NCBI RefSeq assembly: GCF_007004065.1
Contig: NZ_VFSV01000014.1
Span: forward strand, 483 to 64,482
Direction: 5' to 3'
Origin: Palleronia caenipelagi
Lineage (GTDB): Bacteria; Pseudomonadota; Alphaproteobacteria; Rhodobacterales; Rhodobacteraceae
Length of the DNA stretch: 64,000 nt
Under the pieces are notes generated by a model. That model saw nothing but the letters and a program-made list of their open reading frames with translations. It was not told where the DNA came from and searched no databases. How positions within the stretch are numbered: the stretch's first letter is position 1; the number at the start of each line of letters is the position of its first letter. A program made the translations under genes and the position numbers. Positions 56,117 through 60,275 of this stretch are shown here, piece after piece.

Positions 56117-56539
56117 CTAGTCCGGATCGACCTTGCCACGAAGGGCCTTCACCTCGCCGCGCACTTTCTTGGCCTGCAATCGCCGCCGTTTTGAGCCGAG
56201 CGTGGGCCGGGTGGGAATGCGGCGTTTCGGCCGCTCCAGCGCCTGCGCGATCAGTGCGGCCAGCCGTTCGCGTGCAATCTCGCGGTTGCGGGCCTGATGG
56301 CGGGTCTCGCTGACCTGCAGGATCAGCGCCCCGTCCTTGGTCCAGCGCCGCCCGGCGAGCCGTCTGAGCCGCGCCTTGACCGGCTCGGGCAGGTTCGGGC
56401 TGCGCGCCGCTTCGAAGCGCAACTCGACCGCCGTGGCGACCTTGTTTACGTTCTGCCCCCCCGGACCGCTGGCCTGCACGAATTGCTCGGTCAGTTCCCA
56501 GTCCTCGATAGTAATCTGGTCGGTGATGTGGAGAGGCAT
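56117..56539 (-). CDS. arfB: Ribosome rescue hydrolase ArfB
   Basis: A 140-residue protein that frees stalled ribosomes by hydrolysing peptidyl-tRNA. The GGQ motif lies in SGPGGQNVNKVATAVELRF, and the basic C-terminal tail (ERPKRRIPTRPTLGSKRRRLQAKKVRGEVK) is the part that probes the empty mRNA channel. Also called the ICT1/YaeJ family. Confidence 0.94.
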   Translation of the reverse strand: MPLHITDQITIEDWELTEQFVQASGPGGQNVNKVATAVELRFEAARSPNLPEPVKARLRRLAGRRWTKDGALILQVSETRHQARNREIARERLAALIAQALERPKRRIPTRPTLGSKRRRLQAKKVRGEVKALRGKVDPD

Positions 56540-56630
56540 GGGAGCGGCGGGCTCTGTTGTGGACGGTGGCTGGATCTTGGACCAGACACCGTCCGGTGGA
56601 AAGAGCCTGCGCCGGAGGCTCGTCGCCTCT

Positions 56631-57176
56631 TTACCGAATGCCCAGGGCCCGGTCCGCCGAGAGCAGACCCCCGCCCTTGACCACCAGTGTCAGGAACAGG
56701 ACCAGCCACAGGCTGCGCTGGTCCATGATCGCGCTGTCGGGGTGACGGTCGAACCACGCGCCGACCGTTTCCGGTACGGCGATGAGCCCGTGGCCAAAGA
56801 GGTCCACGACTGTCTGCACGGCAACGAAACCGATCATGCCGAGCGCGGCCAGTCGGGTGAAGAGCCCGAGGATGATCAACAGCGGCAGAAGAAACTCGGC
56901 CCACGTCCCCGCGAGGACGACCAGCGTGTGCCAGAGGCTCATGGCGCTCGTGTCATAGCCGACGGCGTCAAACGTCTTTGGGAAGATCTGCGCATAGGCG
57001 CCCACCGACGGGTTGAACAAACCCAGCGGTCCGTCCCCGAGCTTCGTCATCGCGGACGCCCAGTAATACCCGGCGAGCACGGCGGCAAAGACGACGCGCG
57101 CCACGAGTGGCAGGATCGGAGCGCCACGCTCCAGGATGTCACTGGTTCGGTTCACGATGTTCACGACGGTGCTCAT
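56631..57176 (-). CDS. DoxX-family membrane protein of the bufferin operon
   Basis: A 181-residue DoxX-type protein with four membrane helices (LPLVARVVFAAVLAGYYWAS, LWHTLVVLAGTWAEFLLPLLIILG, LAALGMIGFVAVQTVVDLF, SLWLVLFLTLVVKGGGLLS). DoxX genes often close bufferin-type operons; the protein may supply reducing or metal-handling functions at the membrane. It overlaps the upstream DUF2063 gene by ATGA. Confidence 0.88.
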   Translation of the reverse strand: MSTVVNIVNRTSDILERGAPILPLVARVVFAAVLAGYYWASAMTKLGDGPLGLFNPSVGAYAQIFPKTFDAVGYDTSAMSLWHTLVVLAGTWAEFLLPLLIILGLFTRLAALGMIGFVAVQTVVDLFGHGLIAVPETVGAWFDRHPDSAIMDQRSLWLVLFLTLVVKGGGLLSADRALGIR

Positions 57177-57901
57177 GTCGTTTCCTTCTCTGCAAAGCCC
57201 GTTACGGCTCCATGTCCAAGCAGCAGGGCGAATAGGGTTTGAAGATCCACTTCGGGATCGAGGGCGCCCAGCGGCGCACCCGCGCCGATCGACGCGAGCG
57301 CAGCGGCGGCGCCCGATGGCAACAGATGCGGCGCCGGATCAAACTCGGGGCGTAAAATCACAACATCCTGCGCTTCGGCACGGGGCTTCGGTGCATTTTC
57401 TTCGGAGTTGAACCGCCAGATGTCGTAGATTGGCCAGGCTGAGGTGACGATCCGTAATGAGGGGGCGAGGTGCAGACACAGCCGGTCCGGGTCGACGCTC
57501 GCGAGCCCCTGCGGATCGATGGGATCGGCATCGGCGGCGTGGTAACTCTCCCGCAGGGCCAGCTCCAGCCGCGCGATGTCTGGCAGATAACCCAGATGGC
57601 TGAGTTGCGGCAGATTTGCCAGAAACTCCGGCATCTCCGCGCCGTAATACATCATCAAGGGCGATCCCGGCGGATGGGCGCGCGCGAAGACGCGGGCCAT
57701 CTGGCGGAAATTCTCCGCCCCGATCAGCTTCGCCACCACCGGAAAGCCGGTCTCGAGCGCATCGATCAGGCCGACGATCACGTTGTTGCGGTAGACGTCA
57801 AAGCGCTTGCCCGCCGCGCCGCCTTGACCATCCGTGACGATCGCCGGCGTCGGACGGCCGGGATCGAGCAGGGCCATCGTAAATTCGGATTGTCCGCTCA
57901 T
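57173..57901 (-). CDS. bufC: DUF2063 (HvfC/BufC) partner of the MNIO enzyme
   Basis: A 242-residue protein with the DUF2063 N-terminal domain (FDVYRNNVIVGLIDALETGFPVV, FARAHPPGSPLMMYYG, LGYLPDIARLELALRESYHA). In DUF692-dependent RiPP pathways this protein recognises the precursor and delivers it to the metalloenzyme. It overlaps both the MNIO gene and the doxX gene by four bases. Confidence 0.9.
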   Translation of the reverse strand: MSGQSEFTMALLDPGRPTPAIVTDGQGGAAGKRFDVYRNNVIVGLIDALETGFPVVAKLIGAENFRQMARVFARAHPPGSPLMMYYGAEMPEFLANLPQLSHLGYLPDIARLELALRESYHAADADPIDPQGLASVDPDRLCLHLAPSLRIVTSAWPIYDIWRFNSEENAPKPRAEAQDVVILRPEFDPAPHLLPSGAAAALASIGAGAPLGALDPEVDLQTLFALLLGHGAVTGFAEKETT

Positions 57902-58746
57902 GCGGCCACCGCGAGCCTTTGCAACGCCTGCGCGGCACGCTCAGCCTCAGCCGCCAGCGTCGGCCAGTCGGGCACGTCATTGTCCCATTCAATCAGCAAG
58001 GGGCGCGGTCCCATCCGTTCGAGCGCATGGTCAAGGAGCCGCCAGACCGGGTCCGCCGTCTCGCGACCGTGACTGTCGATCAGCAGCGGGCGCCCGTGGT
58101 CGTCGCTGTCTTCATCATGGCCACCGAGATGCACTTCGCCCACCGCGTCGAGAGGGAATGCGTCCACGTAAGATCTCGGATCGTAACCAAGATTGGTCGC
58201 CGAAATGAAGACGTTGTTGATGTCGAGCAAAAGACCGCAGCCGGTGCGCCTGGCGATGGCGGCGAGGAACTCCGGCTCGGACATATCGGTCTCGACAAAG
58301 GCGAGATAGGAGGATGGATTTTCCAGCAGCATCCGCCGCCCCAACACCTCCTGCACCTGATCGATATGGTCGCTCACCCGGTCCAGCGTGGACTGGTTAT
58401 AGGGCAGTGGCAGAAGGTCATTCAGGAATGATGTATCATGGGTGGACCAGGCCAGATGCTCTGAAAACTGGGCCGGGTTGATCGCGTCGCAGAGCGCGCG
58501 GAGCCGATCCAGATGGTCGCGGTCGAGCGACGCTTCGCCGCCGATGGAGAGGCCCACGCCGTGCACCGAGATCGGAAAGCGCTCCGCCAGATGACGGAGC
58601 TGTGCCAGAGGACGGCCCCCGGCCCCCATGTAGTTTTCGGCATGAATTTCGAGCCAGCCCACTCTGCCGGGAGTTTCGCAGATCTCCGCGAAATGCTGCG
58701 CCTTGAAGCCGACGCCGGGCGCGTGAGGCAGGGATGTGGTGGGCAT
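57898..58746 (-). CDS. bufB: MNIO (DUF692) bufferin maturase
   Basis: A 282-residue TIM-barrel enzyme of the multinuclear non-heme iron oxidative family, which modifies cysteines of small peptides. Metal-ligand motifs are visible in order: EIHAENYMG, SVHGVGLSIGG, LLENPSSYLAF, GLLLDINNVFISATN, GEVHLGGHDED. The start MPTTSLPH was taken; an ATG 16 codons earlier gives a less likely Arg-rich extension. It lies 75 bases after the precursor gene. Confidence 0.94.
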   Translation of the reverse strand: MPTTSLPHAPGVGFKAQHFAEICETPGRVGWLEIHAENYMGAGGRPLAQLRHLAERFPISVHGVGLSIGGEASLDRDHLDRLRALCDAINPAQFSEHLAWSTHDTSFLNDLLPLPYNQSTLDRVSDHIDQVQEVLGRRMLLENPSSYLAFVETDMSEPEFLAAIARRTGCGLLLDINNVFISATNLGYDPRSYVDAFPLDAVGEVHLGGHDEDSDDHGRPLLIDSHGRETADPVWRLLDHALERMGPRPLLIEWDNDVPDWPTLAAEAERAAQALQRLAVAA

Positions 58747-58821
58747 CGGGCGGCTCCGTCTGGTTAAAGTTCGGGAGATTTCGGGCCGGGGCACCGGCTG
58801 GCGCCCCGGCTCGGTGGTGAC

Positions 58822-59127
58822 TTACGCCGGGATATCACGCTCGAGGGCTTCGGTGGAGCCCATGCGCTTGGTGCCGTCTTCCATCGCGGGAACTTCCATC
58901 GAGGCGCAGGTGCCGGCTTCGACGAACTTCCAGGCATTGCCCTGGAAATCGACCGTGGAGGTGCCGGCGCAAGTGGTGCCGGGGCCAGCCGCGCAGTCAT
59001 TCTGACCAGCGAGCGCCACACCGTAGCACTTTTCCTTGGCGCCGTCGGCCTGAGCCACGTGAGTCATGGAGGCGAGCGCCCCGACCAGAGCTCCGGCGAT
59101 CGCGACGGTTTTGGCGGTATTCGACAT
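58822..59127 (-). CDS. bufA: Bufferin-type metallophore precursor (DUF2282)
   Basis: A 101-residue secreted peptide. Signal peptide ends at VAQA (residue 27). The mature region has exactly four cysteines (34, 45, 53, 74) in [20 protein letters not shown] and GTCASMEV, the conserved set of DUF2282 proteins. In described bufferins such cysteines are oxidised by the MNIO enzyme and the peptide binds copper. The acidic tail has no Cys. AGGAGAAG precedes the ATG. First gene of the four-gene operon. Confidence 0.93.
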
Positions 59128-59795
59128 GTTTCTTCTCCTCGGTTGTCATCAGATTGACTGGATCGCGTCTTGCGATGTCCTTGTTGTGACGGCGAAATAG
59201 CCTCGGGTCGAGTAACGAAGACGTGGTTCACGAACCGGCCAGCTGTCGCAAATGTGATTTGTTGAGATAGTCAGATATCCGAGTTGGAACTGGTCTGATC
59301 GGTTTCAGGGCACAGCGGCCCAGCCAGAAAAGGCGAGAAAATGGGATAATTTCCCATAATTTCTATACGACACACGGTTTGAGAGGTTTCGGCGCTCCGA
59401 CGCTGCCCCTGAGGGCGGGCTCTGACAGAACAGCTATCGGACGCACGACGCGCTTCCGGTCGGGGTATTCGAGCTCTTCGGTCGGCGGGCCGGGTGGGGC
59501 CAATGTTACAAAATGCGTCCGCCTGCGTTGAATTGGGGTCGGTACTGTTACGAAGGGTCCCCCCAGCGATTTTCTGGAGAGCCGCTATTGTTACAATTAG
59601 ACCCAACAAAGCGCCGATTCCGTGACCCTGAGCAGCACACACTTCGGAAATACCGCCGACCCTGTCACTTAACGGCACATCTCTTTGCAATTGCAAACAC
59701 CCGGCTTCCCCAGTTTGGTCGTGTGACCGCTTGAGTTAAGCCATGGCGCTTGGCTTGCGCGGGGAATTCAATTCTCAAATCGTGGAGTAAGGCTC
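59128..59795. other. Long intergenic region between bufA and gpx
   Basis: Nearly 670 bases without a convincing gene; open frames on both strands lack homology and ribosome sites. It must hold the divergent promoters of the bufferin operon and the glutathione peroxidase gene. Three phased TGTTAC repeats lie in its central to right part. Confidence 0.6.
59504..59595 (+). repeat. Three phased TGTTAC direct repeats, possible operator
   Basis: TGTTACAAAATG (59504), TGTTACGAAGGG (59546) and TGTTACAATTAG (59589) recur at intervals of 42 and 43 bases, close to four helical turns, each followed within 10 bases by a C-rich triplet. Such phased repeats suggest cooperative binding of a regulator on one face of the helix. 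The regulator is not identified. Confidence 0.5.
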
Positions 59796-60275
59796 ATGGC
59801 TCTCGACCTCGACACCCCCTTTGGCAACATCCGTGGCGGTGAGTTGCGGCTGGCCGACTGGCGCGGACAGGCCATTCTGGTGGTCAATACGGCCATGCGA
59901 TGCGGATTCACGTATCAGTTCGACGGTCTGCAAACGCTCTATGAGACCTACAAGGATCGGGGGCTGGTCGTTGTCGCGGTCCCATCCAACGACTTCAAAC
60001 AAGAACTGGCCGACGAAGACGCTGTTCGTGAAAAATGCGAAGCCCGGTTTGATCTGACCCTGCCGATGACCACGATCACCCATGTTCGAGGACCCGAAGC
60101 GCACCCGTTCTACCAGTCGGTTCGGGAGGAGACGGGCTTTGTGCCTTCGTGGAATTTCAATAAATTTTTGATCGGGCCAGATGGGGCCGCGGTGGATCAC
60201 TGGGGGGCGACCACTGGACCGAAATCGAGACGCCTGTTGCGCAAGATCGAAGCGGTCCTGTCCGAGGTGCATTGA
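59796..60275 (+). CDS. Glutathione peroxidase-like thiol peroxidase
   Basis: A 159-residue peroxidase. The catalytic tetrad is readable: Cys36 (NTAMRCGFTYQF), Gln69 (PSNDFKQELADE), Trp119 and Asn120 (PSWNFNKFL). It uses Cys rather than Sec. The NTAMRCG motif departs from the common NVAS-x-CG. GTGGAGTAAGG precedes the ATG. Divergent from the bufferin operon, so both may answer copper or oxidative stress. Confidence 0.91.
   Translation: MALDLDTPFGNIRGGELRLADWRGQAILVVNTAMRCGFTYQFDGLQTLYETYKDRGLVVVAVPSNDFKQELADEDAVREKCEARFDLTLPMTTITHVRGPEAHPFYQSVREETGFVPSWNFNKFLIGPDGAAVDHWGATTGPKSRRLLRKIEAVLSEVH

Follow-up and report, generated by a model that had tools for sequence, protein, structure and literature searches.

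The stretch analysed here, called the window, comprises 64,000 nucleotides of the Palleronia caenipelagi genome, and its positions 56631-59127 raise two questions: whether the four genes encoded there form a bufferin operon of an established type, and what controls such an operon. The first can be answered plainly, as the operon belongs to a known kind, of which it is an unremarkable copy, and adds one member to a charted class. Its regulation, left open by the first-pass annotation, is more interesting than the operon itself, and it is this control layer that would matter.

All four reading frames are intact, lie on the minus strand, and belong to the families proposed from the sequence, since each product scores above the curated Pfam cut-off (DUF2282, MbnB_TglH_ChrH, DUF2063 and DoxX). 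The first gene, bufA (58822-59127, minus strand), encodes a Buf1/DUF2282 precursor of 101 residues (PF10048, 84 bits, cut-off 22.4), for which no NCBIfam model gave a match. It is followed by bufB (57898-58746, minus strand), encoding an MNIO (DUF692) bufferin maturase (PF05114, 347.6 bits) that is assigned to the BufB-type MNIO proteins by the NCBIfam model NF050167 ("MNIO family bufferin maturase"; 375.4 bits, cut-off 310). A longer form starting from a GTG at 58794 is possible (57898-58794, minus strand), the inner ATG at 58746 being the more likely start. The DUF2063 partner (PME-type 1) is encoded by bufC (57173-57901, minus strand; PF09836, 90.7 bits, cut-off 27.2), and the last gene, doxX (56631-57176, minus strand), specifies a DoxX-family membrane protein (PF07681, 31.6 bits, cut-off 23.6); in NCBIfam these two proteins gave only sub-threshold matches, to HvfC and HvfX respectively. 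BufB aligns with the sequences of three solved structures, 3bww, TglH (8hci) and MbnB (7dz9), and the stretches conserved in the alignment (seHl, llEN, lDinN, vHlgG and DsHg) are those that we take to hold the iron ligands. The description of the four genes as coupled applies to bufB, bufC and doxX, which overlap by 4 nt at each junction, and not to bufA, which lies about 75 nt from bufB. The genome carries a single PF05114 gene and a single DUF2282 gene; PADLOC found no defence match for any of the four genes, and the immediate neighbours of the operon are arfB, a glutathione peroxidase-like gene and a HAD hydrolase gene, with no further metal gene among them.

Genes of this type are common in the family. 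In a sample of 295 family genomes, nearly one per genus, 210 have a BufB match, 209 of them above the NF050167 cut-off; within a separate set of 60 relatives, NF050167 is matched in 28, own genome included, and DUF2282 in 27. For closer comparison the window BufB was scanned against genomes of named species, and the best 80 of 576 confirmed places (L070-L149) were joined with the window to give 81 loci. These are nearest matches and hence a biased sample, with BufB identities to the window protein of up to 76.8%. The order bufA-bufB-bufC-doxX on one strand is found in 78 of the 81 loci; two of the exceptions yielded no bufA (L110 and L121, which start at a contig end) and one lacks doxX, a DoxX relative being present in the other 80.

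The BufA precursor begins with a hydrophobic stretch, a putative Sec-type signal that, judged by eye, spans about residues 1-27 and ends in AQA. It contains exactly four cysteines, at positions 34, 45, 53 and 74, as the first-pass annotation had stated. The further suggestion that this spacing is peculiar to the window peptide was not sustained by comparison with DUF2282 relatives. Sequences were read as BufA if they contained CYG or CFG followed by three further cysteines within broad ranges, which gave 80 proteins from 79 of the 81 loci (none from L110 or L121, two from L139, and one, from L078, cut at its start). All 80, drawn from the window and the best 80 of 576 places, share the spacing 11/8/21, so that the supposed individual spacing is that of the family, and a special arrangement of cysteines was rejected. 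The acidic C-terminal tail is real, with 6 acidic against 3 basic residues after Cys74, and is likewise shared: a loose RD[LIMR] pattern, part of a tail resembling GSLEALxRDLPA, fits all 80 proteins of the same sample, and the idea of a special tail was dropped. Among the 29 DUF2282 copies in the 60-relative set, 28 could be read, and four from other families have spacings of 11/9/21 or 11/9/22. Three BufA proteins (L123, L138 and L054) carry a longer C-terminal extension that replaces or surrounds the usual RDLPA tail, and tandem bufA genes occur within one operon in L139, in L068/L049 (G020) and in L067/L069 (G059). The gene order of 78 of the 81 loci, together with the cysteine spacing of all 80 BufA proteins, indicates that the operon is not a chance assembly. 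Curated family models and relatives thus agree with the earlier description of a complete MNIO/DUF2063/DoxX operon of a described class, and the assignment of the four genes to a standard Buf1 (DUF2282) bufferin operon is well supported.

What such an operon does has been established in other groups, and the function ascribed to the window copy is carried over from those characterised members, Caulobacter among them. According to PMC12452194, in which bufferins are charted by the thousand, Buf1 peptides are DUF2282 proteins with four conserved cysteines, of which the two central ones are modified and the outer two form a disulphide; the core genes are those for precursor, MNIO, DUF2063 protein and DoxX, and the operons are associated with copper stress. 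The same source describes the Caulobacter peptide as chelating both Cu(I) and Cu(II) through thiooxazoles and as improving growth in copper excess, and 5-thiooxazole is the group given for characterised MNIO-PME1 products in PMC13097082. By analogy, the BufA precursor would be made first, in the cytosol, where BufB, a multinuclear iron oxidase, and BufC would convert the central Cys45 and Cys53 to thiooxazoles. The Sec pathway would then carry the peptide to the periplasm, with Cys34 and Cys74 as a disulphide, and there it would bind copper and lower copper stress; DoxX would play a helping part of an undefined kind. Chemistry, export and copper binding are all predicted for the window operon in this way, as is control by copper in this organism.

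Comparison with known systems places the operon closest to the Buf1 operons, namely CC3254-CC3257 of Caulobacter and the "gig" operons, with which it shares gene content and order, a four-cysteine DUF2282 peptide, a maturase MNIO, DUF2063 and DoxX. It differs from the Caulobacter operon in its control, which there is exerted by sigmaF and NrsF (PMC3511200); the genome of the window has no NrsF match, and no sigmaF-type site lies upstream of bufA. Buf2 systems share the MNIO, the DUF2063 partner and, if the signal judged by eye is right, a Sec-dependent precursor but have 6 or 12 cysteines as described in PMC12452194, whereas the window BufA is a DUF2282 protein with four. The oxazolin/EGKCG captophorins (HvfABC and FonABC) use related MNIO and PME1 proteins, yet the window BufA has no EGKCG repeats and BufB, while above the BufB cut-off, falls below that of the NCBIfam HvfB model (240.9 against 360). 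Methanobactin synthesis (MbnABC) has the MNIO family and conserved stretches in common with the window BufB; it is set apart by a score of 63.6 bits against the 325 required by the MbnB model, by the DUF2063 partner, and by a DUF2282 precursor with a putative signal peptide.

It has to be considered whether copper is the main concern of the operon, since Caulobacter sigmaF targets that include the same genes respond to dichromate and cadmium (PMC3511200), and since the "gig" operons owe their name to gold and a homologue of DoxX has been tied to other stresses (PMC12452194). A principal role against gold, cadmium, chromate or redox/sulphur stress, centred on DoxX, nevertheless seems distinctly unlikely: the Caulobacter Buf1 peptide, as reported in PMC12452194, chelates Cu(I) and Cu(II) and helps cells to grow when copper is in excess, and beyond its customary core genes the window operon has no further metal gene among its immediate annotated neighbours. 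The four genes very probably constitute a Buf1 bufferin operon for a copper-binding thiooxazole peptide, in which, as one explanation of the hairpin described next, bufA transcripts are kept in excess.

Between bufA and bufB lies a hairpin (58785-58810, minus strand) with a GC-rich stem of 11 bp and a loop of 4 nt, with no run of T after it. A stretch of 91 nt from the window has a minimum free energy of -36.6 kcal/mol (z -2.24), and 4 of 200 shuffled sequences fold as well. The spacer could be used in 74 of the 79 loci with bufA, from the window and the best 80 of 576 places; the others were set aside for Ns (L071), because the spacer was not delimited (L082, L090 and L125), or for a length of 25 nt (L139, where this short spacer next to bufB has no hairpin). 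An uninterrupted stem of at least 9 bp, G-U pairs allowed, is present in 68 of the 74, window included, the shorter stems being those of L093, L101, L107, L119, L133 and L148, and 73 of the 74 spacer sequences are different. The mean stem is 11.0 bp against 6.4 bp in shuffled spacers, of which 132 of 2220 match the stem of their own spacer. Control gaps on the same strand of the same loci, delimited by a crude ORF call, have stems of at least 9 bp in 13 of 56 and of at least 8 bp in 21 of 56. With Watson-Crick pairs only, at least 8 bp are kept in 48 of the 74 spacers. The four loci of sigmaF type discussed below also have the hairpin, with 11-15 bp. No known RNA family was matched between 55000 and 61000 at E values up to 1.

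The most likely role for this structure would be to keep bufA transcripts more abundant than those of bufBC-doxX, either through protection of the 3' end or, if the sequence after it is T-rich, through partial termination, so that the substrate would outnumber the enzyme. A T-rich tail, with 4 or more T in 8 nt, follows only 22 of the 68 hairpins, and thus no single mechanism is established. The terms hairpin, stem-loop and terminator are used nowhere in the main text of PMC12452194, PMC13097082 or PMC3511200. The hairpin makes the stoichiometry of precursor and enzyme testable in the bufferin class of RiPPs.

The operon of the window does not lie where it does in most relatives. In 76 of the 81 loci (the window and the best 80 of 576) thrS is found upstream of bufA, always on the same strand and at a median distance of 225 nt; the loci without it are the window, L101, and three (L078, L110 and L121) that start close to the end of a contig. 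The own genome has thrS on another contig (C116) with no buf genes after it. Directly following this thrS are segments whose counterparts in relatives are on the far side of doxX, one of them a cold-shock gene as judged by eye, and with no buf gene in between the ancestral site looks empty. Within the genus, BufB is found in 2 of 14 genomes, that of the window and G003. The G003 protein is 62% identical to that of the window and falls in a different supported clade of a quick tree, and in G003 an NrsF gene stands beside an ORF that by eye resembles a sigma factor. All 14 genus genomes have arfB, and the 13 other than the window's have no buf, serB or gpx match in the roughly 1.5 kb around it, and so offer no vacant counterpart of the new location. 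BufB relatives (MNIO) are present on 353 plasmid records out of 72,556, in 334 cases at less than 60% identity, which indicates that such genes are able to travel. From these comparisons, the window copy appears to have been moved or regained.

At the thrS site most relatives share a promoter-region element. A motif search of 78 upstream regions, from the 79 loci with bufA (one region was too short) among the window and the best 80 of 576 places, yielded a 32-bp element approximating GACG-N4-YGTGA-N2-CACG-N4-YGTGAAT, laid out as two inverted repeats [G/C]ACG-N4-CGTGA spaced 15 bp apart. It scores above 20 bits in 72 of the 78 regions, against a maximum of 9.3 bits in 3900 composition shuffles, the model having been trained on the same 78 regions. 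Six regions fall short of 20 bits: L106 (14.2 bits), the window (10.0 bits), and L091, L098, L129 and L130 (1.6 bits or less). The 72 strong copies lie 61-126 nt from the bufA ATG, and in 56 of them a TANNNT box follows after 20 or 21 nt (28 each), other offsets occurring at most once. Exact matches to the core in 20 whole genomes picked from the 72 number 16, in 13 genomes; each of these 13 has a single match at bufA, and the other 3 matches lie elsewhere. When the 60 relatives were searched with one mismatch allowed, sites were few, and the own genome had none. Such a near-unique conserved site is a direct handle on a putative regulator, probably of the copper response, in bacteria that are common in the sea. 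The idea of a regulator encoded next to the operon was rejected: none common to most loci was noted among the 40 largest ORF clusters listed, and the conserved upstream neighbour is thrS.

The element ends near the -35 region, and several of its most conserved positions fall in the final part, CGTGA.T, as would be expected if it belonged to a promoter for an ECF or other sigma factor and were not an activator site. This seems unlikely, given that the TANNNT box at 20-21 nt in 56 of the 72 regions resembles a sigma70 promoter with a weak -35 region, and given the tandem inverted-repeat layout.

Four of the low scorers belong to a second type of control. NrsF is found in all four genomes of L091, L098, L129 and L130, as against none of 20 element-bearing genomes tested by whole-genome search, and by their coordinates the four matches fall inside these loci, which are the only four of the 81 (the window and the best 80 of 576) in which sigF and NrsF are visible. 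Upstream of bufA they carry GTAACG-N16-CGAA, one mismatch from the Caulobacter promoter GTAACC-N16-CGAA given, with sigmaF and its negative regulator NrsF, in PMC3511200. The pattern GTAACS-N15-17-CGAA occurs in no other of the 79 upstream regions of this sample; L093 has a one-mismatch site, GTTACC, farther upstream. The four loci form two pairs on a quick BufB tree and hence represent few evolutionary events. They come from Pseudooceanicola and one Primorskyibacter, where sigF and NrsF occupy the thrS site at which other genera have the tandem element.

This picture is extended by the DUF2282 loci of the 60-relative set, 29 in number, which were scored in the same way for both sites. Within the window's family, none of four NrsF genomes has the element and three have a sigmaF-type site (G003, G023 and G029, not G019). 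The 14 family genomes with bufA and without NrsF have no sigmaF-type site; the element exceeds 20 bits in 6 of them, scores 18-19 bits in 2, and reaches 10.0 bits or less in the remaining 6, window included. In one of these low scorers, G020, an element look-alike shifted by one base was seen by eye. In other families, the NrsF-bearing genomes with bufA (G039, G045 and G054) have no sigmaF-type site by the pattern used, and no bufA copy there scores above 20 bits for the element. The two types of control are mutually exclusive where seen, yet do not cover all genomes. A third group, made up of the window and 5 of the 13 other NrsF-less family relatives, shows neither type clearly, and with six such genomes a plain one-step swap of regulators is not established. 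The five relatives (L049/L068, L051, L056, L059 and L065, of G020, G028, G027, G021 and G030 respectively) have no strong element, sigmaF-type site or NrsF, and perhaps a third kind of control is shared between them and the window.

These strands may be drawn into one account, in which sigmaF/NrsF would have been replaced in roseobacters and near relatives by an activator, a dedicated metal sensor, acting on a tandem repeat present almost only at bufA; a hairpin conserved in shape, though not in sequence, would set the ratio of peptide to enzyme; and the window copy would have left the ancestral thrS site and come under yet another control, as would some other relatives. Taken jointly, these proposals seem to us about evenly balanced between right and wrong. 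In the literature searched no description was met of the element, of the bufA-bufB hairpin or of an operon away from the thrS site, and no paper in the open library searched joined DUF692, Roseobacter and copper.

The promoter element is poorly represented by the window copy itself. The best site in the 220 nt upstream of bufA is a weak, degenerate match, CGTGA-N2-CACG-N4-CGTTA (59209-59240, minus strand), 81 nt from the ATG. Under a model from which the window had been left out it scores 2.1 bits, a value reached by 17 of 5000 shuffles of this region and exceeded at three unrelated places in the window. No TANNNT box follows it; the only -10-like word is TATTTC (59194-59199, minus strand), a possible -10 located 9 nt after the weak element as compared with the usual 20-21. 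A scan of 56400-59800 for consensus sigma70 promoters found none. Control by sigmaF was rejected, since the own genome gave no NrsF match and the 220 nt upstream of bufA contain no sigmaF-type site when up to 2 mismatches and gaps of 15-17 are allowed.

A degenerate element, the lack of NrsF and of a sigmaF-type site, a position away from a thrS site that looks empty, and the absence of BufB from 12 of 14 genus genomes could all be read as signs of a displaced operon that is poorly expressed or decaying and no longer works. Four intact frames, a BufB up to 76.8% identical to its relatives, and the retention of both cysteine pattern and hairpin speak against decay, and other relatives likewise show neither control type clearly; this reading is very unlikely.

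Two further features of the region may be recorded. The presumed 5' leader contains a small inverted repeat, ATCGCAAGACGCGAT (59161-59177, minus strand), and by eye several relatives have similar ones at about the same place; the loci L070-L149 frequently have small inverted repeats, TCGCC...GGCGA being an example, after the presumed transcription start. Finally, bufA is separated from the divergent glutathione peroxidase-like gene (59796-60275, plus strand) by a gap of 668 bp (59128-59795), in which GTTAC-type words are repeated near 59500-59600 and an inverted repeat is found at 59341-59357.
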